A program made the position numbers and the translations under genes. Positions 426-48,628 of a stretch of DNA of 50,649 nt are shown here, one piece after another (position 1 is the stretch's first letter; every line of letters begins with the position of its first letter). The DNA is from Bacteroidales bacterium (GTDB lineage Bacteria; Bacteroidota; Bacteroidia; Bacteroidales; UBA7960), in contig JAAYLH010000035.1 of the NCBI GenBank assembly GCA_012521995.1, positions 1 to 50,649 on the forward strand, given 5' to 3'. The notes below the pieces were generated by a model, which saw only the letters and a program-made list of their open reading frames with translations, ran no database searches and had not been told where the DNA came from.

Positions 426-776
426 ATGGATATCGAGACCTTCCGCGACTACTGCCTGGCCAAAAAGGGAGTCACCGAAGGCTTCCCCTTCGACCAGGAG
501 ACCCTGGTGTTTAAGGTCATGGGCAAGATGTTTGCCCTGACCGATGTGGATACCTTCCCCGCCATCAGCCTTAAATGCGACCCTGAAAAAGCCCTGGAAC
601 TGCGCGAACGCTACCCCGCCGTTCAGCCCGCCTGGCATTTCAACAAGAAATACTGGAACATGGTGATCCTCGATGGCTCGGTTTCCGATGCCTTGCTGCT
701 CAAATGGATCGACCACTCCTACGACCAGGTGGTCGCCGGCCTGCCCCGGAAACTCAGGCTGGAGCTTGAGCCGTAA
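426..776 (+). CDS. MmcQ/YjbR family protein
   Basis: This 116-residue protein matches the MmcQ/YjbR family, small cytosolic proteins with a CyaY-like fold described as DNA-binding. Seen here: an N-terminal MDIETFRDYCLAKKGVTEGFPF segment, the central KVMGKMFAL strand pair, SLKCDPEKALELRERYP, and the WN(M)VILDG segment with a closing helix that are typical of the family. Length is normal (about 115-120). It starts on the base after the stop of the upstream small gene. The biochemical role of the family is not well defined. No terminator is obvious after its stop; the gap downstream holds an 11-bp phased repeat. Confidence 0.85.
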   Translation: MDIETFRDYCLAKKGVTEGFPFDQETLVFKVMGKMFALTDVDTFPAISLKCDPEKALELRERYPAVQPAWHFNKKYWNMVILDGSVSDALLLKWIDHSYDQVVAGLPRKLRLELEP

Positions 777-970
777 ACCTGCCGGCCGCATCGCCTTCCA
801 GTGACCACCTGAGGCCCCTGTCTCCGGGACTCCCCAGGGAGAAATCCTTTTAACCCACCCCTTTGTTTAGGTATTGCCGGAGGTAAGCTTTGGCACAATG
901 CTACCTTCACCCTTTTTTTCCAATTCCACCAGGCTGGTTTTGGCCTTCCACCGGCTGACAGTTGCCATGG

Positions 971-1091
971 ATCAGAGCCCTACTTAAGACGTACCTTAGA
1001 CGTACTTAAGACGTACCTTAGACGTACCTTAGACGTACAAAATACGTTTAAAGTACGTTTCAGATACGTTTTATCTCCGGATGATCTCCGT
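971..1091. repeat. 11-bp phased intergenic repeat, locus A
   Basis: Ten units spaced exactly 11 bp apart. ACGT tetramers start at 989, 1000, 1011, 1022, 1033, 1044, 1055 and 1066; the next two units keep the phase with CCGG at 1077 and CCGT at 1088. A looser unit, atcagagccct, precedes them. Common unit forms are accttagacgt and acttaagacgt, and the last one is atgatctccgt, which resembles units of the loci at 39461 and 48524. It lies between the converging YjbR and AOR genes. Confidence 0.85.
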
Positions 1092-1218
1092 TTCTGGTTC
1101 CTTCATGGCATGCCTTTGCCTTGGCCTAAAACCTTGGCAGAACCCTTACGGATTTTTCTGATGATGAATAGAGGGGGTCAGGAATGGGGGAGGAGCTCTT
1201 TTCCAGGGGGGAAAAGAA

Positions 1219-1249
1219 AGGGCTGTCTCCGCTTTTCTGAGACAGCCCT
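1219..1249 (-). terminator. Rho-independent terminator of the AOR gene
   Basis: A perfect 11-bp stem (agggctgtctc at 1219-1229 with gagacagccct at 1239-1249) encloses a 9-base loop. Read on the minus strand it is followed by a T-rich run (plus-strand gaaaagaa at 1211-1218). It lies 25 bases past the stop of the AOR gene. Confidence 0.85.
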
Positions 1250-1274
1250 GTTATGATGGTTCGCTGGTCAGGCC

Positions 1275-3434
1275 TTATGCCAGGTGGGGCTTGACAACCT
1301 CGAGCAGCTCGGGCAGATCCATGCCCAGGTCTTTAAGATGCTCAAGGGTGGGGACGCCATTTTTGGTCCAACCCCTGCGCTTATAGACAGCATCAAGAAG
1401 TTTCTCATACTGGGCTTCGCGGTGCTTGCGCAATACGGCCATTTTTTCCTGTGTGCTTTTGCCCTCAGGATCATAGCCCAGGATTTCCTTGAGTTGTTTG
1501 TCGTAACGCTCGGCTCTTGATTCGTATTCTTCCACCGTAACGGGACCTGCAGCGCGGTAGGGTTGGGCGTCGTGCTTGCGCAGGCCAAAACCACGCCTGA
1601 TGTTAAAGATGCGCTGGAAATTATAAACCCTTTCGCTCATGCGGATCATTTCTTCCTTATCGAAAGGTTTGCCCGTAACGGCCTGGTAAATAGCCACGTA
1701 GTTATCCACATGCTCGGGGATCTTATGGGGTTCTTCAGCCTCGGCGTTGCTTTCGGGCACTACGTCGTTCCAGCATAGCTTGCAGAGGCCCATCAGGCCA
1801 AACCAGGTGCGGAACATAGGGAAGTAGTGGAGGGCTTCAGCCTTGTCATCGAAGCTGGGGATCTGGTTGTTGACCATATCCATGAAGATCAGCCAGGCTT
1901 CATCGTGCTGCGGGCCCTTGTTGGTCATGGCATAACCGCCCTGCTGTGCCAGCGATTCCTTTGAAACGTACTGGCTGTATTCAAGGCCTTTGTTCTCCAT
2001 GCCAATGTCCTGAAGGAATTTCGGGTCACCCCAGCCTTTTTCAATGAACATTTCCTTCATTTTCTTTACGCCCATTCCTGCTACCAGTCCAAAGCCCTCT
2101 CCGCGAGCTAATTGGTGCATCACCTCCATGGAGTTTTCCCAGTCGCCAAAGTTAAGCTCCAGGCCACCGGTGCGTTCCTTATTGAGAATTCCGTTTTCGT
2201 AGCATTCCATTACGAAAGCCATCAGCGTACCCCAGGTAATGGTGCAGATGCCATAGGTGTCACAATAGAAGTTGGCTTCGATGATGGCTTCAGGATCAAA
2301 GACGCCGAGGTTGGAACCCAGGCCTGCAGCGTTCTCGTATTCGGGGCCATCGACAATAACCTTATCCCCTGCGTAGGGCCCGGTCTTCAGTTTAAAATCA
2401 TCCACTGCCTTGGCACAAGACATGTTGCAGCCGATCCAGCAGCCATCGGGCATATTCTGGGTGAAGTATTTGTCGCGGAAAATGTTGCTGTGAATTTTTT
2501 CACCATCGGGCAGGCTGCCGTACTTGAAGTTGTGGGTGGGCAGCAAGTCATAATCCTGCATTACATTGACAATGTTGGCCGTACCCTTTTTGCGCATCTG
2601 GCACTGGTGATCGTCCAGTTCGCGCATCTCGCGATTGAATCGGCGGCCGCGTTCCTTGATGGTTTCCAGGTCGGCCACATGGTTCAGGTCGCCTGATACG
2701 CCCGTGATGCGCGAAACGATGGCCTTGATCTTTTTGTCGCGGAAAACAGTGCCGATACCACCGCGTCCGGCCTGCTTCAGGCGGATCTTCTTGCGCTTCA
2801 CATCATAGAAGGTGAAGTTGAGCATCCCGATCAGGGAGTGTTCAGCAGCAGCTCCCGAGGAGACAATGCCTATGTTGCGGTAGTCCTTTTCATCGTGGGC
2901 AAACATCTCGGTAAGTTCATCGGCCAGGATATGCGAGTCAGCACTCAGTCCCGGATCTTCAAAGACCTCGATGGTATGGTTTACCCCATCGATATAAATG
3001 ATTACGTCTTTTTCGGCTTTGCCCTGCAATTCGAGGGCATCGTAACCCGAGAACTTCAGGAAGGGCCCGAAGAAACCACCCACGTTGGAGTCCATCACCG
3101 AATCGGTTTGAGGTGAGAGGCTTACAATAAGCGACTTCCCTGAGCCTGAATACTGGGTAATTCCTCCCACGGGACCCGAAGAGATGATGATCTCGTTCTC
3201 GGGGTCATTCCATCGGGTGTCGGGTTTGGTGGCATCCCACAAAAGGCGCAGGCCATAGCCCTTTCCTCCGATGAATTTTTCCTTCATAACCGGCGGCACG
3301 TCCTTCTCGCGGATTTCATGGCTGCCAACGTTGATGTACAGAATTTTGTCAGTGTAGCCCCTGAGCAGTTCCTTGTGCTGGTAGTTAACCTTGTTAAGGA
3401 CTTTGCGGGCTCCCTTTAATTCGGCAATGTTCAT
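1275..3434 (-). CDS. aldehyde:ferredoxin oxidoreductase family protein (tungsten/molybdenum pterin)
   Basis: This 719-residue protein belongs to the AOR family, which oxidises aldehydes (or related substrates) to acids with ferredoxin, using a tungsto-bispterin and one [4Fe-4S] cluster in the cytosol. Seen: the N-terminal pterin-binding domain with KFIGGKGYGLRLLWD and IISSGPVGG, the AGRGGIGTVFRDKKIKAI segment, a cysteine cluster C-x3-C-x3-C at about residues 332-340, a further pair in GLCKLCW near 551-554, and a typical C-terminal end, RRGWTKNGVPTLEHLKDLG. The family norm for the cluster is C-x2-C-x3-C, so the spacing is odd. It is longer than archaeal AOR (about 605). A TTG lies 6 bases upstream in frame, but the ATG at 3434 has a clear GGAG ribosome site 8 bases away and is preferred. 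No ferredoxin or cofactor gene is adjacent, so the substrate cannot be assigned. Confidence 0.93.
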   Translation of the reverse strand: MNIAELKGARKVLNKVNYQHKELLRGYTDKILYINVGSHEIREKDVPPVMKEKFIGGKGYGLRLLWDATKPDTRWNDPENEIIISSGPVGGITQYSGSGKSLIVSLSPQTDSVMDSNVGGFFGPFLKFSGYDALELQGKAEKDVIIYIDGVNHTIEVFEDPGLSADSHILADELTEMFAHDEKDYRNIGIVSSGAAAEHSLIGMLNFTFYDVKRKKIRLKQAGRGGIGTVFRDKKIKAIVSRITGVSGDLNHVADLETIKERGRRFNREMRELDDHQCQMRKKGTANIVNVMQDYDLLPTHNFKYGSLPDGEKIHSNIFRDKYFTQNMPDGCWIGCNMSCAKAVDDFKLKTGPYAGDKVIVDGPEYENAAGLGSNLGVFDPEAIIEANFYCDTYGICTITWGTLMAFVMECYENGILNKERTGGLELNFGDWENSMEVMHQLARGEGFGLVAGMGVKKMKEMFIEKGWGDPKFLQDIGMENKGLEYSQYVSKESLAQQGGYAMTNKGPQHDEAWLIFMDMVNNQIPSFDDKAEALHYFPMFRTWFGLMGLCKLCWNDVVPESNAEAEEPHKIPEHVDNYVAIYQAVTGKPFDKEEMIRMSERVYNFQRIFNIRRGFGLRKHDAQPYRAAGPVTVEEYESRAERYDKQLKEILGYDPEGKSTQEKMAVLRKHREAQYEKLLDAVYKRRGWTKNGVPTLEHLKDLGMDLPELLEVVKPHLA

Positions 3435-3474
3435 ATACAAAATCTCCTTTAAAAGTGTTTATTTTAACCGTTTA

Positions 3475-17625: not shown

Positions 17626-20600
17626 CTAGCGAACCAGCGTGACGTCACCGACCAGGTTAAGTGGGGTGCCATTGGGGCATACCCCAGAGAATTTCCAGAC
17701 GAAGACGTCTGTGGTTCCAAGGCGGCCGCGATAGTAACCATCCCATCCGGTATAGGGGTCGGTGCTGCGGAAGATAAGCTCTCCCCAACGGGTGAATATT
17801 TCGAGTTCATACCGTTTCATCTCACCCATAGTGGGGTCCATCTTGGGGTAAAACACCTCGAAGGTTGTGTAGTCCAGGTCGTAGGGGTCGCAAGCCCCTC
17901 CATGAGGCCCCGATACCTGTGGGGTGAAGGCATTGGGAAACACCACGGTGCAGGCAGTTTGGACCAACACCCCGTTTTCGAGCTTCAGGGTGTCGAAGCA
18001 TTGCGGCTGGGTGTCGGTGGCCACGGCTAGGGTAATGGTATAGGTGTTGGGGTACTGATACAAATGTTCGGGTTCAAATTCCACACTTGTGTTGCCATCG
18101 CCAAAGTCCCAGTGGTAGAAGTCAGCACCCTGTGATTCGTTGATAACCTGCAGGAGTTCATATGGGATCTCTATTAGGGGCTGGACAAGTGAGAAGGCTG
18201 CCACAGGATTGGCATGGACGGTAACATACTGGTTAGTGGTGTCGCTGCCACCGTCACCGAAGGCAACGAGCTGCACTTCATAGAAGCCGGGGTCCATGAA
18301 CAGGTGGTGTGGGTTTTCGTCTATGCTAAAGGAACCATCTCCAAAGGTCCAGAGGTAGCTGTGAGCGTGTTGTGAGAGGTTATAGAACTGCACGTCGAAA
18401 GGTGCGCATCCCTGGGCTGATGGAGAAAATTGTGCTTGCGGTACAGGGGAGGTGATGGTAACCTGCTGGCTATAGCTGCTGGTGCAGCCCTGATTTTCGA
18501 CTTCCAGGTCGATGTTGAAAGTGCGGGTGCTCAGGTCACTGATATCCCATTCTCCATAAGTATAATCGAAGGTGTCGGGCGAATTGGTCTGTTGGCCGTT
18601 GCCATCGCCATAGCTCCAGTGGTAGTTCCAAAAACCTGGCTTGCTTAGGTTGTCAATGGTGATGGTGCGCGAAGGATACACCTGTACCTTGGGCGTGGCA
18701 TCAAATTTGGCCACAGGGCTGGGGAAAACGGTTATATCAAGCCAGGTGGTGTCCGTACAGCCAAAGAGGCTGATGCCTGACATCTGTACGGTGAAAATGG
18801 CATTATCAGGACCTTCGTTGGTAAAGGAGTGCCAGGGGTTGGCGCCAGCGGTGGTATTTTCATCGCCAAAATCCCAGACGTATTCCTGGGTGAGCTGCGA
18901 CTGGTTGACAAACTGTACCTCAAAGGGAGAACATCCTTCCAAGACGCCGTCAGAGGTGGTGAAGTCGGCCTGCACCTCGGGGTAAACGGTGATGGATTGG
19001 GTGCTGTGGTCGATGCAGCCAAATTCGTTCTCAACGCTGAGCCAGAGGCTGTAGTTGAGGGGTGCATCGGTAGTGTTGGTCCATGTGTTGCTGAAAGCAG
19101 GCTCATCACCATCGAAGGTGTTGTTGCCCAAGTCCCAGTCAAAGGTGATGGCTCCTTCTGAGAGGTTGAATATCTCAGTAGAAAAGGGGGAACATCCGCT
19201 GCGGCTCAGTAAATCGAAGTTCGACAGGGGCAGGGGACGAACTGTGATGGTATCGGTTGTCAGGTCGGAGCAGCCCCAGTCGTTTTCTGAGTATAGGGTC
19301 ACCACGAAGGATTGCGAGTCGGTATAGCTGTGATTGAGGAAGAGGTGGTTGGGGTTGAGTTGTTGTGAGTTGTTCCCCTCCCCAAAGTTCCAAAAGGTGT
19401 ATGTGGCGCCCACCGACTGGTTGTCAAATTCAACAGCCAAGGGATGGCAGCCCTCGGTTTCAGAAGAAAAGTCAGCTTGAACCTCGGGGTAAATGGTCAC
19501 GATCTGGTCGTAAGAGCGGGTGCATCCAATGTCATTGGTTCCAGAGAGGCTGATGGTATACTGTGCCGGTGCGTTGCCTGCGGGGTTGTGATAGTCGTGA
19601 AGGATCTGGATGTCACTGCTGGTCAGTGGAGGGGTTCCATCACCAAAATTCCACACATAAACGGTTCCGCCCTGTGAGGCATTTTCCAGGACAATATCGT
19701 GGGGCGAGCAACCGACGGGTTCAGAAATGTTAAAGTTGGTCAGGGGGGCTGGCTGAACGGTGATATTCAGTGTGTGAACGTCTGAGCAGGCGTTGGCATT
19801 CATTGCCTGCAGCTCGACGGTATAGGTCACGGGATCGGTATAGCTCTGGTTGAGGAAGGTATGGCTGTGCTGACCTTGGGCTGTATTACTTTCAAAGCCG
19901 TCGCCATAGTTCCAGAAATAGTTGGCGTATGCGGTGGCACCTTCCGAGAGGTTGTTGAACTCCACGGTAAGGGGGTGGCAACCATCGAGGACTGAGGCCT
20001 CGAAGGTCGAGACGATTTGCGGGTAGAGGCTGAGTTGATGCGTGAGCGAATCAGCACATCCGTAGTCATTGCTTACAAAAAGCTGAATATCGATGACCTG
20101 CATGTCGTTGTCCGGTTCCAGGGTATAAGTGTGGGTGAGGGGGGTAAGGCTTTCGCTTGAGAATGTCCCGTCGCCAAAGCTCCAGTGATGGGTGGTCGCG
20201 CCTTCAGACTGATTGGTGATCTCTAATTCGAAAGGTGTGCATCCAGCCAAATCAGAGAGAGCAAAACTGGGATCAGGAACAGGGTGGACAGTAATGGTTT
20301 CTTCGGTTTGGTCATAGCAGCCATAAATGGATTCGGCTCTCAGCCTTACAAAGTAATCCAGGTTTTGAGTGTGGCTGCTGTTTGTAAAGGTGTAGGAGGG
20401 GTTGTTGATGGCCGAATAGCCTTCGCTGCCAAACTCCCAGCTAAAATAATGTGCCGTGGTGCTGCTGGTGTTGGAAAAGTTTACCGTCAGGGGGTGGCAT
20501 CCCTCGCTAACAAAGATAAATGCTGCTTCCACCTCGGGGTAAACGATGATGGTCCTGGTAAGCGTATCGAGGCAGCCAAAGGCACTTTCTACGATCAAGG

Positions 20601-23600
20601 TAATTTCGTGCTCAAGGGGTTGCCCGGTAGTGTTGGTATAGGTGTGGGTCAGGCTAGGCCCACCATCATTGGAGGGGTCACTGCCGTCCCCGAAGGTCCA
20701 GGCAAAGAGGCTGGCGCCTTTGGAGGCGTGCGTGATGTTCACCGTGAAAGGGCTGCAGCCCTTAGCGGTATCGAGGGTGAAAAGGGCTTCCACAGCAGGG
20801 TTAAGCTCTATCTCAAGGGTCTTGGTGTCACTGCACATGTAGGATGACTCGGCATACAGGCTGACAGTATAGGCTTGGGTCGTGCTGTAGTTTTGATTTT
20901 GGAAGATGTGCTGCGGGTTTTCCTGAGAGGAAGAGCCACTATCGCCAAACTCCCATAGGTAGGTATGGGCGTTGGCGGACAAATTAGAAAAGTCAATGGT
21001 GAGAGGCTGGCAGCCACTGGATTCATTTGCAGTGAAGTCGGCAGTCACCTCAGGATTTACCGTTACAGGCAATTCTTTGCGGTTAACACAGCCCTGCTCA
21101 TTGCCCACTTCCAATGAAAGAATGTACTGCATGGGGTCGGGCCCTGAGTTTTGAAAAACATGGTCAAACTGGGGCGTTGAGCCCATGTGAGTAATGTCCC
21201 CGTTGGCAGCCAACGACCAGCTCCAGCTATTAATATTGCCAGTAGAAGTATTGGTGATGTTAGTCTGGTGGGGGGCGCATACCACAGCGGGTTCGAAGTT
21301 AAAACCTGCCTTTACCTCAGGGTGGACAACGACTTCCACGAAAGTGGTGTCATAACAGAAATTGTCGTTTGAAGTAATCTGCATCACTGAATAGAAAATT
21401 GTCTGGTCCGTCTTGTTTTCGAAAGTGTGAATAGGGTTTCTTTGGTCAGAAGTTCCCCCGTCATCAAAATCGTAGAAAAAGTTGTAGGCCGCGCCGACCG
21501 ACTCATCGGTGAAGGTCACCGTGAGTGGAGCACAACCTTCTTCGATGCTGGCTTTGAAGCCGGATTTGAGGAAGGGGTAAACGTCAATTTCCACTTGCAT
21601 TGAGTCGGCACAGCCTTGGGGGTTTGTCACGACCTGCGAGATGGTGTAGGTTAAGGGATCTGCAGTGTTATTGTCAAAAGTGTGTTGCAGAACGGGGTCA
21701 CCTGAGGTGAAGCCGGGGGTCCCATCCCCAAAACTCCAGGTCTGGGTAATGTTGAGTCCCAGAGCGTTGTTGAATATTTCTGCATCATAGGGGCTGCAAG
21801 CGGTCACAGGCATCAGCCCGAAGCCAGCCTCCAAAAATGGCCTGACGGTTACTTCAATGGTGTCGCGGCTAAGACACATAAAATTGCCTGACATTGCCGA
21901 AAGCACTACTGTATAAGTAATGTTTTCGTCGGTGAAGTTTTGGAAAAAGTGTTGGGGGTCGGACTGGGTGGAAAAACTGCCGTCGCCAAAATCCCAAAGA
22001 TAAAATGCTACAGGCCCAATGGTTTGGTTGGTAAACTTCAAAGGGTAGGGAGCACAACCGATCAGGTCCTGGTCTATGACGCTGAACCTGGCCTCTGTGG
22101 GTGGGATTACCTCGATGTTTCGTGTGCGTATATCTTCACATCCATTGGTTGAATTGGTAGCCGTAAGTGTCACAGGGATTATCTGCGTAATCACGGGGAT
22201 TGTGAAACTATATTGGAATGGTTCTGTGGGGTTGCTGATGGGCGCTTCTGTGCCAATCTGCCAGCTGAAGTTATCGGTGTTTTCCGATAGGTTAAGGAAG
22301 GTGACTTCATTCATTTCGCAGAAGTCTTGCTGGGCATAGAACTTGGCCTGCGGCCTGGGATAAACCTGCAGGTATTGTGACTTTGTGCTGCGACAGTTTC
22401 CATCGACTACTGTATAGCTGATGGTATGGAATCCTTCCCCCAGTTCCAGGGGGTTCACACTGGTGATATTATGTTCGTTCAGGGTAGGTAGGGAGAAATA
22501 TCCTCCAGCAGGTGAAGCTCCGCTAAGTTGGTAATAGGTCTCATTTCCGCAAACAGGGTCGAAAGGTTCAAGGGTTACAACGGGCAAGGGGGTAACGTTT
22601 ACGGTGACATAATTGGTAACGGGCTTTGCATTGGGATAGGCCGCATCGAGGACTTGTACCTGGTATGTGGTGGTGGTAGTGGGCGTGTGCCAGAAAGAAA
22701 GAGAGTCGGACAAATGCTGGGGAGGAATGACGGAAAAGTCATACCAGTTAATGATATAGTCTCCTGTACCTCCTGTGGGAAGCACAAAGAGGTTAATTGA
22801 GTCCTGCTGACAGATAGTAGTTTCGCTAGCTTGGGCATGCACAACGCCAAGTTGCCCACCATTTACAAAAACCGCTACCTGGTCGGTGCTCTGGCATCCT
22901 GTAGCAGGGTTGGTTGCAGTCAGGGTGAATAGTTGTGATTGTGTCAGCGGTGTAGTGCTGGTGTTGGGCTGGCTTGGGTTCATAACAAAGGCCGGAGGGC
23001 TCCAGGAGTATTGGAAAAGGCCTGGATTAGCCCCCAATGCATTGAGGGGAGCGCTGGTGTTTTGAGGAATGTTAAGGTCATTCCCTGCATTTACAGGAGG
23101 CAGGGGGTCGACAAACACTTGTGCAAAGGCATCGGCAGAGCACCCTTCTGGGGTAGTATAATGGTAGGTGATATCGAAGGATCCTGGCCCGCTCAGGTCA
23201 GTATCGAAAAAGTTGGCGCTGACAAAGGTGCCGAAGTAATCGCCACCTGTGGGAAAGCCACTACTGGGAGATACCAGTCCAGAGCCGTCACAGAAGGTCA
23301 TGTCGTTTACACTCACCGTGGGGGTCTGGTTGACGGTGATGGTCTGTGAGGCTGTAGCAGCGCAGGTTGCACCTGGCCCGCCATACACATAGGTCACTTC
23401 ATAGTTCCCTGGGCCAACGGTGCCGGGTTCTAGCCAGAATGACTGGGTCCCATCAATGTAATAGGCTCCTCCACTAGGGTATCCTCCTGTGAGATAAATC
23501 ATGCTGTCGGCGGTACATGCCAGATCGAAGGGCTCCAGAGTAACGTTGGGGGTATAGTTCTGTGCGCTGAGGTGTCCCAGGAAAGAAGCGGAGGTAGTGG

Positions 23601-24027
23601 CGGTTCTGCAGAAAGTGATGGTATGCGGGCCGGGGCCATCCAAGCAGATAGTCACAGGGTCATTTTCATAAACAGGCCCGAAATTCATGCAATCGACGTA
23701 ATAATTGACCTGGCCCCAGGATCCGCCCTGACGCATTAGGTTAATTACCACTGCATTGGATTCGGGATGCAGCGTTACTTCATAGCTAAAACAATTCGTT
23801 CCTGCCGGGACACCACAACACTGGCCTGAAGGAGAAAAGTATTCAGGGTTGGCCCAGCTTGCTGTTGGACTGGAAGTCAGATCGACAGGAAAACCTGTGC
23901 AATCCTGGCTTAAGGCATGCCCCGGCGTTAAAAGCCACCCAGCCAGGATCGCCATAAAAGCTAATGACTTCCTCACCTTACCGGTGAGGGGGTGGAAGAT
24001 TCTTTTTATTGCAGTCAACAATTGCAT
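17626..24027 (-). CDS. giant PKD-repeat surface protein with type B T9SS sorting domain
   Basis: A 2133-residue exported protein with signal peptide (MQLLTAIKRIFHPLTGKVRK, hydrophobic core SLAFMAILAGWLLTPGHALSQ). Domains in order: a cysteine-rich N-terminal region, Ig-like GG-x-Y-type modules (about 170-560), a PKD-like module, then 13 modules of about 85 residues (about 650-1765), each with a start GCxP, a middle W-x-FGDG and an end C-x-D, and three further PKD-like modules. The end is a gliding-motility-type (type B) sorting domain: VVFPNAFTP ... YELEIFTRWGELIF ... GWDGYYRGR ... GDVTLVR. Two cysteines per module suggest one disulfide each. PKD arrays act as stalks or adhesins at the cell surface; adhesion or gliding is an inference. 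It starts 26 bases after the 1839-residue gene, with GGAG 7 bases before its ATG. Confidence 0.92.
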   Translation of the reverse strand: MQLLTAIKRIFHPLTGKVRKSLAFMAILAGWLLTPGHALSQDCTGFPVDLTSSPTASWANPEYFSPSGQCCGVPAGTNCFSYEVTLHPESNAVVINLMRQGGSWGQVNYYVDCMNFGPVYENDPVTICLDGPGPHTITFCRTATTSASFLGHLSAQNYTPNVTLEPFDLACTADSMIYLTGGYPSGGAYYIDGTQSFWLEPGTVGPGNYEVTYVYGGPGATCAATASQTITVNQTPTVSVNDMTFCDGSGLVSPSSGFPTGGDYFGTFVSANFFDTDLSGPGSFDITYHYTTPEGCSADAFAQVFVDPLPPVNAGNDLNIPQNTSAPLNALGANPGLFQYSWSPPAFVMNPSQPNTSTTPLTQSQLFTLTATNPATGCQSTDQVAVFVNGGQLGVVHAQASETTICQQDSINLFVLPTGGTGDYIINWYDFSVIPPQHLSDSLSFWHTPTTTTTYQVQVLDAAYPNAKPVTNYVTVNVTPLPVVTLEPFDPVCGNETYYQLSGASPAGGYFSLPTLNEHNITSVNPLELGEGFHTISYTVVDGNCRSTKSQYLQVYPRPQAKFYAQQDFCEMNEVTFLNLSENTDNFSWQIGTEAPISNPTEPFQYSFTIPVITQIIPVTLTATNSTNGCEDIRTRNIEVIPPTEARFSVIDQDLIGCAPYPLKFTNQTIGPVAFYLWDFGDGSFSTQSDPQHFFQNFTDENITYTVVLSAMSGNFMCLSRDTIEVTVRPFLEAGFGLMPVTACSPYDAEIFNNALGLNITQTWSFGDGTPGFTSGDPVLQHTFDNNTADPLTYTISQVVTNPQGCADSMQVEIDVYPFLKSGFKASIEEGCAPLTVTFTDESVGAAYNFFYDFDDGGTSDQRNPIHTFENKTDQTIFYSVMQITSNDNFCYDTTFVEVVVHPEVKAGFNFEPAVVCAPHQTNITNTSTGNINSWSWSLAANGDITHMGSTPQFDHVFQNSGPDPMQYILSLEVGNEQGCVNRKELPVTVNPEVTADFTANESSGCQPLTIDFSNLSANAHTYLWEFGDSGSSSQENPQHIFQNQNYSTTQAYTVSLYAESSYMCSDTKTLEIELNPAVEALFTLDTAKGCSPFTVNITHASKGASLFAWTFGDGSDPSNDGGPSLTHTYTNTTGQPLEHEITLIVESAFGCLDTLTRTIIVYPEVEAAFIFVSEGCHPLTVNFSNTSSTTAHYFSWEFGSEGYSAINNPSYTFTNSSHTQNLDYFVRLRAESIYGCYDQTEETITVHPVPDPSFALSDLAGCTPFELEITNQSEGATTHHWSFGDGTFSSESLTPLTHTYTLEPDNDMQVIDIQLFVSNDYGCADSLTHQLSLYPQIVSTFEASVLDGCHPLTVEFNNLSEGATAYANYFWNYGDGFESNTAQGQHSHTFLNQSYTDPVTYTVELQAMNANACSDVHTLNITVQPAPLTNFNISEPVGCSPHDIVLENASQGGTVYVWNFGDGTPPLTSSDIQILHDYHNPAGNAPAQYTISLSGTNDIGCTRSYDQIVTIYPEVQADFSSETEGCHPLAVEFDNQSVGATYTFWNFGEGNNSQQLNPNHLFLNHSYTDSQSFVVTLYSENDWGCSDLTTDTITVRPLPLSNFDLLSRSGCSPFSTEIFNLSEGAITFDWDLGNNTFDGDEPAFSNTWTNTTDAPLNYSLWLSVENEFGCIDHSTQSITVYPEVQADFTTSDGVLEGCSPFEVQFVNQSQLTQEYVWDFGDENTTAGANPWHSFTNEGPDNAIFTVQMSGISLFGCTDTTWLDITVFPSPVAKFDATPKVQVYPSRTITIDNLSKPGFWNYHWSYGDGNGQQTNSPDTFDYTYGEWDISDLSTRTFNIDLEVENQGCTSSYSQQVTITSPVPQAQFSPSAQGCAPFDVQFYNLSQHAHSYLWTFGDGSFSIDENPHHLFMDPGFYEVQLVAFGDGGSDTTNQYVTVHANPVAAFSLVQPLIEIPYELLQVINESQGADFYHWDFGDGNTSVEFEPEHLYQYPNTYTITLAVATDTQPQCFDTLKLENGVLVQTACTVVFPNAFTPQVSGPHGGACDPYDLDYTTFEVFYPKMDPTMGEMKRYELEIFTRWGELIFRSTDPYTGWDGYYRGRLGTTDVFVWKFSGVCPNGTPLNLVGDVTLVR

Positions 24028-24053: not shown

Positions 24054-27000
24054 TTAGCGGGGATTTGTTACGATCAGTTTTCGGGTGATGACACCTTCTT
24101 TTCCGCTAAGCCTTATGTAATAAAGACCTGGTTGCAGAATGCCTGTATTGATCCTCTCCTCAAGAAGTCCCATCATCTCCAAATCCCTGGCTATGATGAG
24201 TTTTCCTGTGAGGCTAAGCAATTCCAACCGCAGCGCTTCCATGCTTTCCTGGGCAATTCGCACAGTCACTTCCTCGTGGGCGGGGTTGGGAAATACCGTC
24301 ACCTCAGTGCCCGGGATACCGATCTGGGGAACACCAGTACTCTCACCTACATAGAGGGTGTCGCCATTTTGGCAGCCGTAATGGTCAGTAACCATTACAT
24401 AGTGCCAGCCATATTCATAAACGTTGAATAACTGGTTTGTGTTACCATCCTGCCACAAATAACTTGTAAAACCTGGTCCTGCATCTAGGATTACCGTATC
24501 TGGTTGCAGTGTGTAAATATCGCTTCCCAGCTCAACAAAGGGGATACCAGGGGCTTCTACCAGGTTGATGAAGTTGTCGTTTGCCGAATCCACGTCGGGC
24601 TCATCGATAAACACATTCAATTCAAAGGGCCCTGTGTCGCTCAGGTTGGCTCCCTGAGAGAAGGCAAAGGTGCGCATCTGACCAGGGCCCAGGCTTGAAT
24701 TTAGAGTGAAGTCCTGAATGGTGGCAGGGTTTTGGTTGACGCTGTAACCTATTCGGAATTTCCTCCCGGATTGGAACGTGTCGGGGCCGTTGTTGCGCAT
24801 CACAAATACAATTTGTTCGCTGGCCGTAAGGGTACAATTGCTAAGGGGCGACAGCAGATCGTAAACTTCCAGATCCCAGGCCACTACCATCACCGAGTCG
24901 GTGTTGGCACAGCCCTGGGTGTCAGTAACCGTTACATGGTACCATTGCGAATAGGGTGATGTGATGACATACTCGGCCCCGATTGAACCATCGTTCCAGT
25001 AGTAGGATTCGTAAGTCTCCGTCAGGTGTAACACATGGCCAACGGGGTCGGCGTTAAATATGGTATCCCCAAGGTAGGGTTGCGGAAGTGGATGGACACT
25101 AACAATGCTTTCCAGGGCATCGTTGTCTGTGTTTTCATCAGCAGGGTGATCTAGCCAGAGCTCCATAGAGACCTGTGTCAGTTTACCTAGAGTAAGTGTC
25201 TGGGCAAAGGTAAATTCATGGGACTGCCCGGGTGCAAGGCTATGCAGGGTGGTAATCTGTTCGGTTGCCATGGGAGTGCTGTTGACACTGTAATGAATAG
25301 TCAACTGTTCGCCCTGAGGAATGGCCACGTTACCAGCATTCACAATACTGATCACCACAGGGGCGTCGACAAATTCGTTCTCGCAGCCGTCGGCGGGGCT
25401 TACAAGGGCCTGCATGCCTAAATCCATAAACTCAGGGGTGACAAGGATGCTTCCTGTAGCCTCGCAGCCAAAATCATTGCTTACTGTGATCTGGTAGGTT
25501 CCCCAGGTTTCAATGGCAATGGTTTGAGAGCTTTCGCCCGTACTCCAGGAATAGGCGGTATGGCCAGGGCCCGCATCAAGGATAACGCTGTCAGGCTCAT
25601 TGGTTACAACCATTGTGGGTATATCTAGGATGGGATATCCATGGATAATCAGATTCTTTTCCAGGTAGTCATTGGCCGGATTGGCGTCTTTTGAGGTGAT
25701 CTCGGCGGCAATGGTATAGCTTCCTTCTTCCTGTAAGTTCAGGGTGTGTTGTAATGTGTAGTTCATGCTTTGTCCCGCTGGCCACCCTGATTCCAGCGTA
25801 AGAGTTTCCTCCGCTTCAAGGATGCCATCCAGATAAAGTTTGAGGCTAAAGGTTTTTCCTGCCTCAAAAGAATCCACCCCATTATTGCGGAGGTTTAGTG
25901 TAACAGGTTCGTTCTCATCAAGAGCGCATGCGTCAGCAGGGCTTTCGATACCAGTTATGCCTGCATCGAAGGTTGCCACCACTAGTTCGGCTGTGGCACT
26001 GCAAGCCTGGTTGTCGTAAACGGTAACCCAATAGGTCTGGGTGTAGGGACTGGTGACCTGGTAGGTCTGATTTGTGGAGCCATCCTGCCATTGATATGCG
26101 GCATAACCCTGACCTGGGTCGAGTAAAACAGTATCGGGCATCAGGGTATAGATGCTGTCGCCCAGGGTGACAACGGGGTAACCCAGAGAGCTAACCAGGA
26201 TATGAATGCTGTCGTTGACCGGATTGGCGTCGGGCAAATGATGCACTGCATCCACCTGGTAATCGCCTTCCGCCGAAAGGTTTATTATGCTTTCAAAAGT
26301 GGCAACTGTCGATTGCCCGGGGTTCAGGGCCTGGGTTAATGACCAGGTTTTGTCCTCTAGCCACTGGTTCTGAAAGTACAGGCTAAGAGGAATCTCAGTT
26401 CCTGTTTCAAAGGCGTCGGGACCAGCATTGGTTATCTCTACCTTGACTTGCTCCCCTTCGGGAGCCTGGCAGCCGTTCAGAGGGGCCGTGATGGCGGTGA
26501 GAGCCAGGTCATAGGTGATTACGCGGATGCTGTCGGTCGCAGTGCAAGCGTTGTCATCACCCACCGTGACCCAATAAGTTTGTGTGTTTGGGCTGGTTAC
26601 CTGGTAGGTTTGATTGTTTGAACCATCCTGCCAGAGGTAGGAAGTATGTCCGGGGCCTGCATCCAGCAATACACTCAGGGGCTGTGTGGTGTAGATATCT
26701 TCTCCCAAGTCGACAAAAGGTGTGCCATATACTTCTATGGTTACAGCAAGGGTGTCGTTGAAGATTCCGGGGCTGAAAAAGTCGTCATCGCCTTCAAGCA
26801 GGGTATATGCAGTCAGTTGGTAGGTTCCTGTGGCTGACATATTGAATGACTGGGAAAAAGTGAAGAGGGCATGTTGCCCGGGTGCAAGGCTTTCTTCCAG
26901 TATCAGGGTCTCCAAAAGGCTTACGCCTTCGTTATGGGAGTCGAGCCCCACAGGGATATGGGTTCCGGCAGCAATGGTGTTTATGCCCAGGTTTTCGACC

Positions 27001-29573
27001 GCAACGGTGACATCCTGAGTTTCGCTGAGGCTGCAACTGGTAATGGGCTGCATGAAGGCCGTCACGCCCACATCATGTTGTGCCCCATATACGCTAACCA
27101 TATCAAAACCAACCCCTTCAAAATTGAGGGCTACGGCTTGGGAGGCAAAGATAAGCCTGAACCTTACTGAGCTTTGATTGCCTAGCTCTTCAGGTAATAT
27201 GATGCGGGCGTTGAGCCATCCATTGCTTAGGCCGCTCCAACCCCTGCCGTTACCGGTCTTGCTGGCCAAAGCTGAAATGTTGTTGTGGTTGTACCAGTAC
27301 CAGGCAAGGTTGGGGTTTCGGGGCTCCAGACGTGACCAGGTCAGCCCACCGTCAACAGTATATTCAATGGCAGCGCCGTCCAAACCATTTGGGGTGTGAT
27401 AATTAATAAAGAAATCGAGCACAGGGTTCGGGATACCACTGAAGTCAAAGCAAGGGCTTTCGACCCAGGAGAGTTCGTCAGCGTTATACACACCAAAGGG
27501 ATTGGTGACCCATGAGAAGCTGCCTGAAGCTGCACTATCTATTATACTTCCTACTGGAGATCCTAGGATAAGTGAGCTGTTCTCACCATATGGAGCCCAG
27601 AAGTGATCACCCTCCTGAAAGTCCTCAGAATAGGCTGGGGTAAACACGGGCAGGGAGAAAATACTGGTTTGTAAAAGGTTGTTGGTTTCATCCTGATCAT
27701 CCTGGAGTTCGGTTTTGAGCAGGATACTTTCATACAGTCCAGGGGTTGAAAAGTCGGCCGTTGGTCCGAAGGTAAAGTTGCGGCTTTCCCCAACAGGGAT
27801 TGAGGTCTTAAGGGTATCTCGGTGCCAGGTCTGCCCGTTGTCTATGGAGTACGCCAAGGGGATTAAGGAGGGTGTTGCACTTGCTCCAAAGTTGGTCACG
27901 CTAACCGTCACAGGCTCTTCGTTTGTGAGGTTGCAGGTATTAAAGGGCGCAATGAGGGCGCTGATGCCCACATCCCTTGTGACATACGTTCCTGTTACTA
28001 CCAGGTTGTCGAGGTGCCATCCGCTCTGTAGGTTGGTTCCACCGGTTTCTCCCAGTGTAAAGCGGAAACGAACAGACTGTTGACGGTTGGCCCGAGGTAC
28101 CACATAAGAAATCTGGGTCCAGGTGGAGGTGTTCTGAACCTGCTGGTTGTCCCAGATGGTGGTCCAGGTGTTTCCATTATCGGTACTGATGTCAATACTG
28201 GCGAAATCGAAGAGGTGAACATTGAGCCAGCGCTGGAAACTCAGCCTGACGTCGGCATAGAAGTCTGTGCTGAACTCTGGAGTAGTGGCTACATAGGCCA
28301 GGGAAGGGAGTGTGGGCTCGTAATTGCCTGGGTAGGCCCCTAGTCCTGTGATGTCTGTTCCCATGATCTTGGTGCCGCTCACGGCATAGTCGGGGCCTGC
28401 AGGCCCTGATGTGTTCGACTGGTCGGGCTGGTGTCCGCCAAGACCTTGTGGCACCTCACGCTGCCATTCTCCTGTTAGCATCCAGCCTTTGTCCTGCTCA
28501 AAATCATCGTAGAAAATTGTCTCGTAAATTTTGCGGCTTCCGGTGGGGTCCTGTTCCTCTGAGGGATGCTGTTGGCCGTTTACTGTTATTCCATTTGCAG
28601 GGAGCTTTACATCAATATTGTTGCCGGGCTGGGCATCATTTGCAACATCCAGTGTCACCCATAAATAGGAATAGCCTGTGGGGAGGTCGTGACTCAATTG
28701 GTTGAAAATTACCTGCCCGTTTGAGAAATTCTTGGCGCTACCTAGTTGCTGTGCGTTTGTAAAGTTCTCACTGCTTGTATACCACAATTTTACTCCCAGG
28801 TCAGGTATGTCGACATCACTGGTGTTGAGCGAGGAAACCTTAAAGCTTTCGAGGGTGAGGGTGCCTGTGTTGCCAATGACCCTTAATTCGGTCTTCAGTA
28901 CTTCATTGTTTTTTGAGCCGGTATGCACCAGGAAGGTGGTGGGCTGGTAACTGCTGACAGCAGATAACTCGCGAGGCAGGCTGCCAGTTTCTACAATGTT
29001 TATTTCGTCCACACAAACGCTTCCTCCCAGACCTTGTCCTGAGTGCCCTTCAAAAGCTACATAAAGGGTCTTCGTGCTGCCGGGTAGCTGTAATACCCGC
29101 TCCACCCATTGGTTTACGGGATTCTGATAGCTGGCTATGAGGGTCCAGGGGCCCGTGGAGCTGGTGGCGATATAAACTCCAAGCTTAGCATTGGACCCAT
29201 CGCGGGGCACTTGTGCATGCCAGAAACTCAGCTCTGGGTTTACAGCAAACTCCAGGTCTATGGGAGGAGTTATCAAACGGCTGATGTAAGGGTTAAAGGA
29301 AGGAACCCTGAAAAATGCATTGCGCTGGCCGAAAGCAGCAGTGTCGGGTAAACCCACCTGTCCTGAAGGGAAAGGCCCTGCCCCCAGGCCGATCTTCCAG
29401 CTTTCGTTGCCAACAACCATGGCATTGACCCAACCCGTGGGCAGGTTGTCTCCATTGTCTTCAAAGCCTTCGTAGAAAAAGCTGGTGCCTTGCGCTGATG
29501 CGCTGAATTGAAGTATCAGCAAGAGAAATAATGCTGAAACGCTCCCGTTAAGAAATCGTAAAATTTGCCCCAT
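24054..29573 (-). CDS. giant T9SS type A surface protein with CARDB-like repeats
   Basis: An 1839-residue exported protein. Signal peptide after the ATG at 29573 (MGQILRFLNGSVSALFLLLI ... SASAQG). The N-terminal 200 residues resemble a MAM/jelly-roll domain (FFYEGFEDNGDNLPTGW ... ELSFWHAQ); a second such domain follows near 370-530 (FYDDFEQDKGW) and a third near 640-830. Then come five tandem units of about 180 residues (DNA about 27070-24340). Each has a CARDB-like half (DLALTAI..P..GC ... V.ITNAGPDAFETG ... LNPGQ) and an Ig-like half (VILDAGPGHTSYLWQDGS..QTYQV ... YWVTV.D..GC). The end is a type A sorting domain, TVFPNPAHEEVTVRI ... GLYYIRLSGKEGVITRKLIV. The frame continues to 29624, but that extension precedes the signal peptide. 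Probably co-transcribed with the 2133-residue gene. Confidence 0.92.
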   Translation of the reverse strand: MGQILRFLNGSVSALFLLLILQFSASAQGTSFFYEGFEDNGDNLPTGWVNAMVVGNESWKIGLGAGPFPSGQVGLPDTAAFGQRNAFFRVPSFNPYISRLITPPIDLEFAVNPELSFWHAQVPRDGSNAKLGVYIATSSTGPWTLIASYQNPVNQWVERVLQLPGSTKTLYVAFEGHSGQGLGGSVCVDEINIVETGSLPRELSAVSSYQPTTFLVHTGSKNNEVLKTELRVIGNTGTLTLESFKVSSLNTSDVDIPDLGVKLWYTSSENFTNAQQLGSAKNFSNGQVIFNQLSHDLPTGYSYLWVTLDVANDAQPGNNIDVKLPANGITVNGQQHPSEEQDPTGSRKIYETIFYDDFEQDKGWMLTGEWQREVPQGLGGHQPDQSNTSGPAGPDYAVSGTKIMGTDITGLGAYPGNYEPTLPSLAYVATTPEFSTDFYADVRLSFQRWLNVHLFDFASIDISTDNGNTWTTIWDNQQVQNTSTWTQISYVVPRANRQQSVRFRFTLGETGGTNLQSGWHLDNLVVTGTYVTRDVGISALIAPFNTCNLTNEEPVTVSVTNFGASATPSLIPLAYSIDNGQTWHRDTLKTSIPVGESRNFTFGPTADFSTPGLYESILLKTELQDDQDETNNLLQTSIFSLPVFTPAYSEDFQEGDHFWAPYGENSSLILGSPVGSIIDSAASGSFSWVTNPFGVYNADELSWVESPCFDFSGIPNPVLDFFINYHTPNGLDGAAIEYTVDGGLTWSRLEPRNPNLAWYWYNHNNISALASKTGNGRGWSGLSNGWLNARIILPEELGNQSSVRFRLIFASQAVALNFEGVGFDMVSVYGAQHDVGVTAFMQPITSCSLSETQDVTVAVENLGINTIAAGTHIPVGLDSHNEGVSLLETLILEESLAPGQHALFTFSQSFNMSATGTYQLTAYTLLEGDDDFFSPGIFNDTLAVTIEVYGTPFVDLGEDIYTTQPLSVLLDAGPGHTSYLWQDGSNNQTYQVTSPNTQTYWVTVGDDNACTATDSIRVITYDLALTAITAPLNGCQAPEGEQVKVEITNAGPDAFETGTEIPLSLYFQNQWLEDKTWSLTQALNPGQSTVATFESIINLSAEGDYQVDAVHHLPDANPVNDSIHILVSSLGYPVVTLGDSIYTLMPDTVLLDPGQGYAAYQWQDGSTNQTYQVTSPYTQTYWVTVYDNQACSATAELVVATFDAGITGIESPADACALDENEPVTLNLRNNGVDSFEAGKTFSLKLYLDGILEAEETLTLESGWPAGQSMNYTLQHTLNLQEEGSYTIAAEITSKDANPANDYLEKNLIIHGYPILDIPTMVVTNEPDSVILDAGPGHTAYSWSTGESSQTIAIETWGTYQITVSNDFGCEATGSILVTPEFMDLGMQALVSPADGCENEFVDAPVVISIVNAGNVAIPQGEQLTIHYSVNSTPMATEQITTLHSLAPGQSHEFTFAQTLTLGKLTQVSMELWLDHPADENTDNDALESIVSVHPLPQPYLGDTIFNADPVGHVLHLTETYESYYWNDGSIGAEYVITSPYSQWYHVTVTDTQGCANTDSVMVVAWDLEVYDLLSPLSNCTLTASEQIVFVMRNNGPDTFQSGRKFRIGYSVNQNPATIQDFTLNSSLGPGQMRTFAFSQGANLSDTGPFELNVFIDEPDVDSANDNFINLVEAPGIPFVELGSDIYTLQPDTVILDAGPGFTSYLWQDGNTNQLFNVYEYGWHYVMVTDHYGCQNGDTLYVGESTGVPQIGIPGTEVTVFPNPAHEEVTVRIAQESMEALRLELLSLTGKLIIARDLEMMGLLEERINTGILQPGLYYIRLSGKEGVITRKLIVTNPR

Positions 29574-30021
29574 GTTGTATCCTTTTTGATGTTTTTTTCT
29601 GCCTGCCACGACTTCACATGACACGACCCATCAATTTTATGTAAAATTATTTGTTGTAACCGCCCGTGGCGTCAGCGTTTTGTGTATTTTCCCCAAGGCA
29701 AAAACAGGGGATATGGACCGGTAGAAAACTACGGGTATTTTCCCCGCTCAGAAATGTCAGGAAAAGGGCAGAAGAATGCCTGGTCTGTTCGAAGGAATGT
29801 CAGAAAAAATTATCCAAATTTGTATTTTTTTTGCAGGCTGTTTTTCTTTACAGTATTTTTTGATCCAGCTGAGGATAGTTAAGAAACAAACCTTTTGCTG
29901 AATTTTGGGTTTTGTTTTCAGTAAGTGAACCGCCTGTGCATTCATTGAATTCTTTTGTGGCATAGAATGTTTGTGCTACCTTGCCCTCAATTTGACTATG
30001 TGCTATGCTTGAATGGCATGA

Positions 30022-37171: not shown

Positions 37172-39313
37172 ATGATTCCTGAGCATCATATTATCCAGAT
37201 TGCCAACGAGTTAAACCTTTTAACCAGGCAGGTAAGCCGTACGGCTGAGTTGCTGAAAGAAGGCGCTACCGTGCCTTTCATCTCGCGCTACCGCAAAGAG
37301 ATGACCGGCTCACTCGACGAGGTCCAGGTCAGCCAGATCCGCGACCGGATGAACCAGCTCGGGGAACTGGACAAGCGCCGCGAGGCCATCCTGGCTTCCA
37401 TCCGCGAGCAGGAGAAGCTGACCCCCGAGCTGGAGAAAGCCATTCTGGCTGCGGCCACGATGACCGAACTGGAAGACCTTTACCTGCCATACCGCCCCAA
37501 GCGAAAAACCAGGGCCACGATGGCCATGGCCAAAGGCCTGGAGCCCCTGGCAAAATTGCTTTTCTCGCAAGGGAACTTCGACCCTGAAGAAAAAGCCCTT
37601 GCCTTTATCAGCGATGAGAAAGGGGTGGAGTCGGTAGAGGAAGCCCTTGCCGGTGCCCGCGACATCATTGCCGAATGGGTCAACGAAGATGCTTCCGCCC
37701 GGGCCCGGATGCGCCGCCTTTTTGAACGCGAGGCGGCGATCACCAGCCGCGTGGCAAAAGGAAAAGAAGCGGATGGACAGAAATACGAAGCCTGGTTTGA
37801 ATGGACCGAAACCATCCGCAAGGCCCCCTCACACCGCATCCTGGCGATGTTTCGCGGGGAGAACGAGGGCTTTCTGAAACTGGAGATCGCCCCTGAGAAA
37901 GAGATGGCCCTCGATTTGCTCAACCGGCAGTTCGTCAAAGGCCGCACACCCGCCAGCGCGCAGGTGGAAATGGCCGTTGAGGATTCCTACAAGCGCCTGC
38001 TGGGCCCCTCGATGGAAACCGAGATCCGCAACCTGCTCAAGGAAAAAGCCGACCAGGAAGCAATCCGGGTGTTTGCCGACAACCTGAAGCAGCTGCTGCT
38101 GGCCCCGCCCCTGGGGCAGAAACGCATCCTGGCCATTGACCCCGGCTTCCGTACCGGCTGCAAACTGGTCTGCCTCGATCGCGAAGGAAAACTCCTGCAC
38201 AACGAAACCATTTATCCCCACCCCCCCGCGGGGCAGTGGAAGCAGGCTGCGGCCAAGATCTTTAGCCTTGTAAACGCCTACCAGGTGGAAGCCATTGCCG
38301 TGGGCAACGGAACTGCTGGCCGCGAAACAGAACAATTGGTCCGTGGCATTCGCTTCGACAGGCCTGTGCTGGCCGTGATGGTCAATGAAAGCGGCGCTTC
38401 CGTATATTCTGCATCATCCGTAGCCCGTGAAGAATTTCCCGATTATGATGTGACCGTCCGGGGAGCCGTCAGCATTGGCCGCAGGCTTGCCGATCCGCTG
38501 GCTGAACTGGTTAAAATCGATGCAAAAAGCATTGGGGTCGGGCAATACCAGCACGATGTGGATCAAAAGCTCTTGAAGAACAGTTTGGATGATGTGGTGG
38601 TGAGTGCTGTGAATGGGGTGGGGGTCGAGCTTAACACCGCCAGCAAGGAACTCCTTACTTATGTTTCAGGCGTGGGCCCTTCACTGGCCGCTGCCATCGT
38701 GAAGCACCGCAATGAGAACGGGCCTTTTGCTTCAAGGCAAGCCCTGAAAAAAGTAGCCCGCTTTGGCGAAAAAGCCTTTGAACAATCAGCCGGTTTCATC
38801 AGGGTTAACCAGTCGGTTAATCCCCTGGATCGTACTGCTGTGCATCCAGAAAGCTATCCCGTGGTTCAGAAAATGGCCAAAAAACTGGGGGTAGACATCC
38901 AGACGCTTATGCAGGATTCCACACTGCAAAAACAGATCCGTTTGGAAGATTTTGTGGATGATAAAACCGGCTTGCCAACCCTGAAGGACATCATGCAGGA
39001 ACTGGCCCGCCCGGGCCGTGACCCCCGCCAGAAGTTTGATGTTTTTGAGTTTGACAGCACCGTCAACAGCATCAAGGATTTGCGCGAAGGGATGATCCTC
39101 CCGGGAATCGTGACCAACATTACTGCCTTTGGCGCCTTTGTTGATGTGGGCGTTCATCAGGACGGGCTGGTACACATCAGCCAGATTGCCAATGCATTTG
39201 TCAGCAACCCCCACGATGTGGTGAAGCTCAACCAGAAAGTCAAAGTCAAGGTCCTCCAGGTCGATGTGGATCGCAAACGCATCACCCTCTCAATTAAAGA
39301 AGCGGCAGAATAG
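37172..39313 (+). CDS. tex: Tex family transcription accessory protein
   Basis: A 713-residue nucleic-acid-binding protein. Tex helps transcription and RNA turnover through contacts with RNA polymerase and RNA. Domains seen: N-terminal helical region with VPFISRYRKEMTGSLDE, a YqgF/RNase H-like domain (ILAIDPGFRTGCKLVCLDREGKLL), a helix-hairpin-helix region (NTASKELLTYVSGVGPSLA), and a C-terminal S1 domain (GMILPGIVTNITAFGAFVDVG ... GLVHISQIA). Length is close to the family norm (about 710-780). The frame is open from 37118, but ATG at 37172 (MIPEHHIIQIANELNL) is the normal start. Confidence 0.95.
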   Translation: MIPEHHIIQIANELNLLTRQVSRTAELLKEGATVPFISRYRKEMTGSLDEVQVSQIRDRMNQLGELDKRREAILASIREQEKLTPELEKAILAAATMTELEDLYLPYRPKRKTRATMAMAKGLEPLAKLLFSQGNFDPEEKALAFISDEKGVESVEEALAGARDIIAEWVNEDASARARMRRLFEREAAITSRVAKGKEADGQKYEAWFEWTETIRKAPSHRILAMFRGENEGFLKLEIAPEKEMALDLLNRQFVKGRTPASAQVEMAVEDSYKRLLGPSMETEIRNLLKEKADQEAIRVFADNLKQLLLAPPLGQKRILAIDPGFRTGCKLVCLDREGKLLHNETIYPHPPAGQWKQAAAKIFSLVNAYQVEAIAVGNGTAGRETEQLVRGIRFDRPVLAVMVNESGASVYSASSVAREEFPDYDVTVRGAVSIGRRLADPLAELVKIDAKSIGVGQYQHDVDQKLLKNSLDDVVVSAVNGVGVELNTASKELLTYVSGVGPSLAAAIVKHRNENGPFASRQALKKVARFGEKAFEQSAGFIRVNQSVNPLDRTAVHPESYPVVQKMAKKLGVDIQTLMQDSTLQKQIRLEDFVDDKTGLPTLKDIMQELARPGRDPRQKFDVFEFDSTVNSIKDLREGMILPGIVTNITAFGAFVDVGVHQDGLVHISQIANAFVSNPHDVVKLNQKVKVKVLQVDVDRKRITLSIKEAAE

Positions 39314-39460
39314 CTGTCGGGATCCGGCATTCTGGCTTTCCTCCCCTGAACAAAAGAATGAAGCGCTTTGTCCATAAGCCCGGCACTTCCCTGATCCATC
39401 CTTTTGCCTTGGGCTGATCCTGAGAAGGACCTGCCTGAACGGGATTTGGATATTGTTTTA

Positions 39461-39510
39461 AGCGGTAAAAAGCGGCTAAACTACGGAGATGGTATGGGCG
39501 AGGTAGGGCT
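39461..39510. repeat. 11-bp phased intergenic repeat, locus C
   Basis: Read on the minus strand the units are acctcgcccat, accatctccgt, agtttagccgc and tttttaccgct, in 11-bp phase (plus-strand blocks 39494-39504, 39483-39493, 39472-39482, 39461-39471). Three of the four closely match consecutive units at 48557-48589. The locus lies in the 331-base convergent gap between tex and the acyl-CoA synthetase. Confidence 0.8.
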
Positions 39511-39587
39511 TTGAAAGGGATATTTCCTGCCTGGAAAGGATAAAGAAAAATGATCTTAACTGAATCACGAACCGTAAAAATGAAAAA

Positions 39588-48298: not shown

Positions 48299-48523
48299 TT
48301 CCCTTTCTTCTTAACCTTTTTCAAAAATTCCTTGTCCAGCTAACGGGCGGGGAAACCCGCTTTCCTGGCTGGTACATGAATTTAGCCGCGGAAAACCGCT
48401 TTGAATTCTGATTGGTTCGGGATAACCGATTTTTGAAAAGCTGAAAACTTTGGCCGGACTTTTTGGAATGGATTTTATTAAATTTTTGTGATTTTTTTCA
48501 TCAAAGATTTAACCGCCCCGGGG

Positions 48524-48628
48524 ACCATCTCCCTGCCATCTCCGTACCATCTCCCTACCATGTCCGTAGTTTAACCGTTTTTAACCGGCCATGGTACGAC
48601 GGAGGAGGGGACATGGAACGGACAAGGA
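48524..48628. repeat. 11-bp phased intergenic repeat, locus B, with inverted second array
   Basis: Forward units in 11-bp phase: accatctccct (48524), gccatctccgt (48535), accatctccct (48546), accatgtccgt (48557), agtttaaccgt (48568) and ttttaaccggc (48579). An oppositely oriented array follows at 48585-48628; on the minus strand its units are tccttgtccgt, tccatgtcccc, tcctccgtcgt and accatggccgg, again 11 bp apart. It lies in the 499-base gap between the terminator of tRNA-Met and the converging DUF4168 gene; the rest of the gap shows no gene. Confidence 0.85.

Follow-up and report, generated by a model that had tools for sequence, protein, structure and literature searches.

Layout of locus A and of the other arrays of the window

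The window, that is, the whole 50,649-nucleotide stretch of Bacteroidales DNA that was analysed, carries near its left end a YjbR-family gene (426..776, plus strand; PF04237, 4.3e-32) and an aldehyde ferredoxin oxidoreductase gene (1275..3440, minus strand; PF01314 and PF02730), which converge on an intergenic array here called locus A. Between 989 and 1091, ten xCGx units follow one another at an exact step of 11 bp, with ACGT at 989, 1000, 1011, 1022, 1033, 1044, 1055 and 1066, CCGG at 1077 and CCGT at 1088, confirming the slip-free phasing described in an earlier note on this DNA. When the whole window was compared with itself at lag 11 in 55-bp windows, the match peaked at 981 (45/55), the runner-up being at 48523 (38/55).

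The earlier note overlooked that the array is an inverted, dispersed and multicopy element. The copy at locus A spans 981..1099 and lies, in canonical orientation, on the minus strand, as given by its row in an alignment of 39 copies; the model built on that alignment matches 982-1095 on the same strand with 100.5 bits, a score obtained by construction, the copy being part of the model. The 39-copy phase profile and the sequence place a conserved arm of five TACGTnTnAnn sites, running outward from the centre, at 982..1036 (minus strand). The two arms are separated by a centre assigned to 1037..1043, where the minus strand reads ATTTTGT, and an opposed, degenerate arm occupies 1044..1091 on the plus strand, with the ACGT cores at 1044, 1055 and 1066, the CCGG at 1077 and the CCGT at 1088. 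By composition, the left flank (777..972) is pyrimidine-rich with C over G (purine fraction 0.39) and the right flank (1093..1274) has a purine fraction of 0.51. An intrinsic-terminator-like hairpin with a T-run, recognized by eye at 1212..1248 (minus strand), would serve the 1275-3440 gene, and the array is located beyond it as seen from that gene.

Two further loci of the window had been linked to locus A. The second array (48518..48620) was detected at lag 11 and is made of units of another family (TACGGAGATGG-like), with an opposed right-hand arm visible by eye, while the locus at 39455..39500 is a short, degenerate relative of that array with two or three units, which falls below the lag-11 threshold and was added by hand to the inspections of flank composition, flank matches and terminators. 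The proposed sequence link was only partly borne out: the locus A model matches neither of them, the design (11-bp units in opposed arms, by eye) is alike at 48524 with a different unit, and the likeness at 39461 is limited to its few degenerate units. As the earlier note stated, all three loci lie in convergent gaps, the neighbours being Tex (+) and AMP-binding (-) genes at 39461 and tRNA-Met (+) and DUF4168 (-) genes at 48524.

Elsewhere in the window, the contig end (1-71) has nine copies of AAGTTGAG, and two adjacent, very long reading frames (17626-24027 and 24054-29624) encode 2133 and 1856 aa.

A dispersed element with two opposed arms

To describe the array at the scale of the genome (3.26 Mb in 140 contigs), patterns, a lag statistic and the alignment model were used. 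Four ACGT at 11 bp with at most two mismatches gave 278 matches per strand against three in the reversed control, and five ACGT with one mismatch gave 155 against none, many of these matches being overlapping hits inside one array. The model search located the ~119-bp element at no fewer than 46 places, a row count that is a lower bound because 77 of the 408 own-genome candidates were scored. Dispersal of the element is thus established, and so is its fixed architecture: in every one of the 39 own-genome copies, aligned in a single orientation over 119 positions, five 11-bp sites are followed by a short centre and by a second arm running the other way, with six (16 copies) or seven (23 copies) bases between the inner cores and looser outer sites in the second arm. 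The same genome also has an array (L204:6814-6904) whose ACCGTATCTCG units are direct, not inverted. Among the titles listed by literature searches of open-licence papers, none describes the two-armed element.

A sample of 1.00 Mb, made of the window and 80 own-genome pieces, of which 13 consisted entirely of N and were dropped, was then scanned for periodicity. Its 445 intergenic sequences contained 24 lag-11 regions, where 20 first-order Markov resamples predict 0.05, no region at lags 10 and 13, and 23 at lag 7 (0.05 expected). Hence, the 11-bp spacing stands far above the resamples and above lags 10 and 13, but it is not more frequent than every other spacing, lag 7 being about as common. 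The period-7 arrays have another make-up (GGTTTAA, TTTTTCA), for instance at L183:7990-8154 and L176:2906-3003.

The alignment showed phase-specific conservation: 44 of its columns do not vary, and some of these are T and A positions that the ACGT search pattern did not cover. The stronger arm repeats the site TACGTnTnAnn: across units 2-4, seven of the 11 positions (T0, A1, C2, G3, T4, T6 and A8) were invariant in 39/39 copies, position 5 varied in 10-31% of the copies and positions 7, 9 and 10 in 31-56%, and in the innermost unit T0 varied in 33%, A1 in 5% and T4 in 10%. The drift attributed to all seven bases between the cores is therefore real at some positions and absent at others. The motif and its direction are preserved in the weaker arm as well, in reverse complement, with a relaxed A1 (10-46% varying) and a looser outermost unit, which indicates that the ACGT palindrome is not the whole signal. 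Because ACGT patterns, the lag-11 statistic or resemblance to locus A served to collect the copies, the conservation of the core is partly ascertained; the patterns fixed ACGT only, so that they do not explain the invariance of T0, T6 and A8.

Array pairs common to two congeners (G044 and G046) gave a second view of this conservation. Over seven pairs, changes amounted to 8/253 in cores, 33/444 in spacers and 114/1719 in flanks, making the core slower than the spacer (Fisher p 0.028) and the flank (p 0.035), with few pairs and weak p values, and with a flank rate inflated by the poor flank identity of L320/L330. The pair L324/L335 was left out of this count, its alignment having ended before the array. 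With cores defined in one sequence, and with an eighth pair counted where aligned, the figures were 5/216, 33/492 and 119/1724. In these two genomes and in one from another genus (G041), arrays of the same layout are built on other cores, among them CCGT and TCGT. Taken together, the phase-specific conservation and the slower orthologous cores support the earlier reading of the array as a site whose spacing is kept while its sequence drifts, rather than as a slippage repeat.

A functionless minisatellite born of slippage would account for the tandem units and for the gain or loss of one 11-bp unit that separates G044 from G046. We find it very improbable, given that the two-arm layout recurs in 39 copies with conservation specific to the phase, that arrays at lags 10 and 13 are absent and that the sole length change inside the seven orthologous arrays (L279/L281) is of 11 bases, exactly one unit.

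The opposed arms also raise the question of an RNA hairpin, in which transcripts reading through the array would form an extended stem and thereby be terminated or stabilised. Predicted RNA folds are strong (z -4.66 and -4.44 for locus A, -11.5 for L271), and many copies lie downstream of gene ends; the direct array L204 of the same genome, conversely, gave a z of 0.0. However, Watson-Crick pairing within a copy did not exceed pairing across copies of the same subfamily in 5/5 unit pairs (p 0.115-0.89), and one of 15 covariation tests reached p 0.045 (unit 1, G-U counted, uncorrected); L257, cut one unit off by the centre rule, was out of register in this test. A hairpin maintained by pairing found no support, for want of co-variation between the arms within a copy, which weakens the hairpin reading as a whole. 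In addition, the terminators of the genes lie, by eye, nearer to the genes, and Rfam gave seven matches, all under every cut-off and six of them to microRNA models. We hold the hairpin to be improbable. The flanks were also considered as outer arms of a giant hairpin, and this was discarded because own pairs scored 11.08 and crossed pairs 11.15.

Placement between genes and comparison with known systems

None of the 26 sampled arrays above threshold was inside a called gene, which establishes their placement in gaps: 11 were in convergent, 10 in tandem and 3 in divergent gaps, and 2 were near contig ends. Relative to the gaps of at least 40 bases, these numbers correspond to 11/57 convergent, 10/334 tandem and 3/93 divergent gaps. 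Convergent gaps were enriched as the earlier note had anticipated (odds ratio 7.6, p 1.8e-5), also among long gaps, defined as at least 250 bases after subtracting 120 for the array (odds ratio 4.7, p 0.0016), and the divergent deficit was not significant in the sample. They are not the rule, since 13 of the 24 sampled gap arrays are tandem or divergent. Gene calls came from our own hexamer script, which accepts short frames, and not from a standard caller; with genes of at least 100 aa only, the arrays split into 10 convergent, 11 tandem and 3 divergent, with odds ratios of 5.8 (p 0.0002) and, for long gaps, 3.7 (p 0.01). Leaving out genes below 120 aa gave 9 convergent, 10 tandem and 4 divergent, the window array then having no left neighbour. 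Further own copies, gathered non-randomly by similarity in 24 pieces, were in tandem (13) and convergent (9) gaps, and seven more pieces fetched in the same way added four tandem and three convergent; a looser threshold added one unrelated divergent region.

Inside their gaps the arrays sit near the middle, with medians of 210.5 and 223 bases to the flanking genes and a relative position of 0.476 (sd 0.124, against 0.289 for a uniform spread). Flanks read toward the array are pyrimidine-rich in 35/39 cases on each side; in a separate count by context, this held for 32/33 flanks downstream of a gene end and for 10/15 facing a gene start. The halves of arrayless long gaps are near 0.5 when pooled. 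Loading of Rho was considered because of these pyrimidine-rich reads; the skew seems weaker, by eye, in the relatives. Judged likewise by eye, gene terminators are nearer to the genes than the arrays are. Those of the L190, L178, L193 and L226 gaps appear to have in common a hairpin like GGCTGYCTC..GAGRCAGCC.

Arrays with the same period and core were found outside the genome, too. When 84,980 species genomes were scanned, at least 111 stretches showed an exact ACGT five times in a row at 11-bp steps, rumen Bacteroidales supplying many of them. From the listed stretches, 79 of the 111 were chosen, covering Bacteroidota and Ignavibacteriales though not every such stretch, and these contained 80 arrays, none in a called gene, 61 with both neighbours and 19 at edges. 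Unlike the element, the rumen arrays are, in the stretches as listed, direct and not opposed, and they are biased to divergent gaps: the 61 comprise 29 divergent, 26 tandem and 6 convergent arrays, against 59 divergent, 164 tandem and 28 convergent gaps. This preference means that placement does not support one role. No function common to the array neighbours emerged at the loci of the window or at ten rumen loci, and the idea of a regulon at the rumen arrays, for phosphate or otherwise, was rejected after 20 flanking proteins of those ten loci showed no common function. In two genomes of rumen Paludibacteraceae, an ACGTANNATAT array (L039:7041-7088 and L053:4992-5039) has near-identical flanks and distances to both genes, and differs in the two middle bases.

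Among known systems, operators of the OmpR/PhoB type resemble the element within each arm, where 11-bp direct repeats are found. The Streptomyces PhoP protein is described as binding 11-nt direct repeat units, four core and two ancillary ones at pitH2 (PMC7866108), and Mycobacterium tuberculosis PhoP as binding 7-bp motifs in tandem with a strict 4-bp spacer, also three or four in a row (PMC4832192). These operators are direct repeats at regulon promoters, whereas the element has two opposed arms and lies mostly in convergent or tandem gaps; its location (11 convergent, 10 tandem and 3 divergent, mid-gap) was the reason not to file it as such an operator. The TAACTGA repeats of Beggiatoaceae, for which a post-transcriptional role has been proposed, are likewise abundant, intergenic, phased and short (PMC4679880), but their units are of seven bases and nearly all direct.

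REP and BIME sequences are, like the element, dispersed, intergenic and palindromic, and REPs are reported mainly between unidirectional or convergent genes (PMC3733652). The same source describes them as palindromes of 20-40 bp with a GTAG or CGTC tag, the CGTC REPs being apparently devoid of a Y1 transposase. The element differs in its length of ~119 bp and in its ten 11-bp phased sites in place of an end tag. A REP mobilized by a Y1 transposase was rejected, as no adjacency was seen and none of the 12 Y1_Tnp loci in the four congeners had a lag-11 array in its piece; the copies seen thus lack the RAYT (Y1) neighbour, which is not decisive for the CGTC kind. The arrayless congener G045 has three Y1_Tnp loci.

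Spread among relatives and possible meaning

Model matches (E ≤0.001, strict filters) numbered 16 in G044, 13 in G046, none in the congener G045 and four in G041, of another genus; under the same filters, the other 42 of the 47 genomes of the family gave none. Since G045 lacks a match, any function that the element may have can be dispensed with in the genus. An order-wide scan of 393 genomes found six with a match, the own genome being one, against two in the reversed control.

Copies within the genome share sequence to different extents. Over 94 bp, 97% of the letters agree between locus A and the C20 copy, with no match between their flanks. C70 and C40 also have both flanks in common (414 bp at 75%) and are neighboured by genes with dissimilar-looking protein starts. 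In C11 the left flank and the array are well shared, the right flank to a smaller extent, and C89 has mainly the array in common, with the left flank at 64-65%. A four-copy alignment did not fix the ends of the unit. The L190 gap and the 39313-39645 gap of the window are both short in G046, where both neighbours are in place without array or flanks, reflecting either a gain in the window's genome or a loss in G046. Unlike contexts and empty sites are thus both found, as in MITEs. G044 and G046 have arrays at the same places, but position is not conserved for the three window loci, a feature that the earlier note would have counted as support: their matching gene ends carry no array in the congeners examined, which for locus A and 48524 refers to G045 and G046, inspected by eye and at lag 11 with one neighbour matched.

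These features could be those of a purely selfish miniature element, whose phased sites bind its own unseen transposase or recombinase and from which the host gains nothing. The flank-free identity of locus A and C20, the flanks that C70 and C40 share, the patchy distribution (46, 16, 13 and 0 places in four congeners, four in the other genus, 0 in 42 genomes) and the two empty syntenic gaps of G046 all fit such an element. A candidate partner would be a tyrosine recombinase of 374 aa, whose gene is intact downstream of an array in G046 (L329:1791-2915), decayed beside an array in L330 of the same genome and present beside an array at two cut G044 loci (L319 and L320); its best match in the own genome covers residues 101-372 at 41%. 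Against this stand the homologous tyrosine recombinase loci, of which one in 20 has an array besides the decayed L330 copy, and the Y1 transposase loci, of which 0/12 have one. The array was accordingly rejected as a recombination site (att or attC) of the G046 recombinase, 19 of the 20 homologue pieces being arrayless. Moreover, old orthologous copies keep their cores, which would be needless for a dead selfish copy. We regard the selfish element as possible, on the unlikely side.

The reading that we put at about even chances is that locus A is one copy of a spreading, non-autonomous intergenic element that serves as a platform on which proteins bind at phased sites. The simplest account of a phase that is fixed, of letters that are invariant once per turn and free in between, and of the absence of a pairing constraint is a row of proteins on the DNA; we infer a binding protein, its kind and a role as clamp or roadblock. 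The element would offer ten putative protein sites at 11 bp, five per arm on opposite strands and directed outward, with the motif TnCGTnTnAnn. The protein would most likely bind head to tail on one face of the helix, in the manner of OmpR/PhoB-type proteins on 11-bp repeats, and the bound proteins would form two runs diverging from the centre. Such an element may spread among gaps and be retained in mid-gap, away from the genes and, where this was seen by eye, beyond their terminators. There, the proteins bound in a row could serve as an architectural clamp, or else as a roadblock to read-through from both sides, so that the architectural binding or insulation guessed at in the earlier note may be its role.

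A broader proposal, which we advance with reserve and consider rather unlikely, is that in some Bacteroidales phased two-way protein platforms insulate transcription units or organise the nucleoid throughout the chromosome, as mobile sites in which phase matters more than sequence. If the element is selfish, it would be an unusual miniature element, in which the helical phase is fixed while part of the sequence changes. If a protein reads the arrays, one genome would hold dozens of natural ten-site platforms of known phase, on which one-face binding, cooperativity and two-way insulation would be directly testable.
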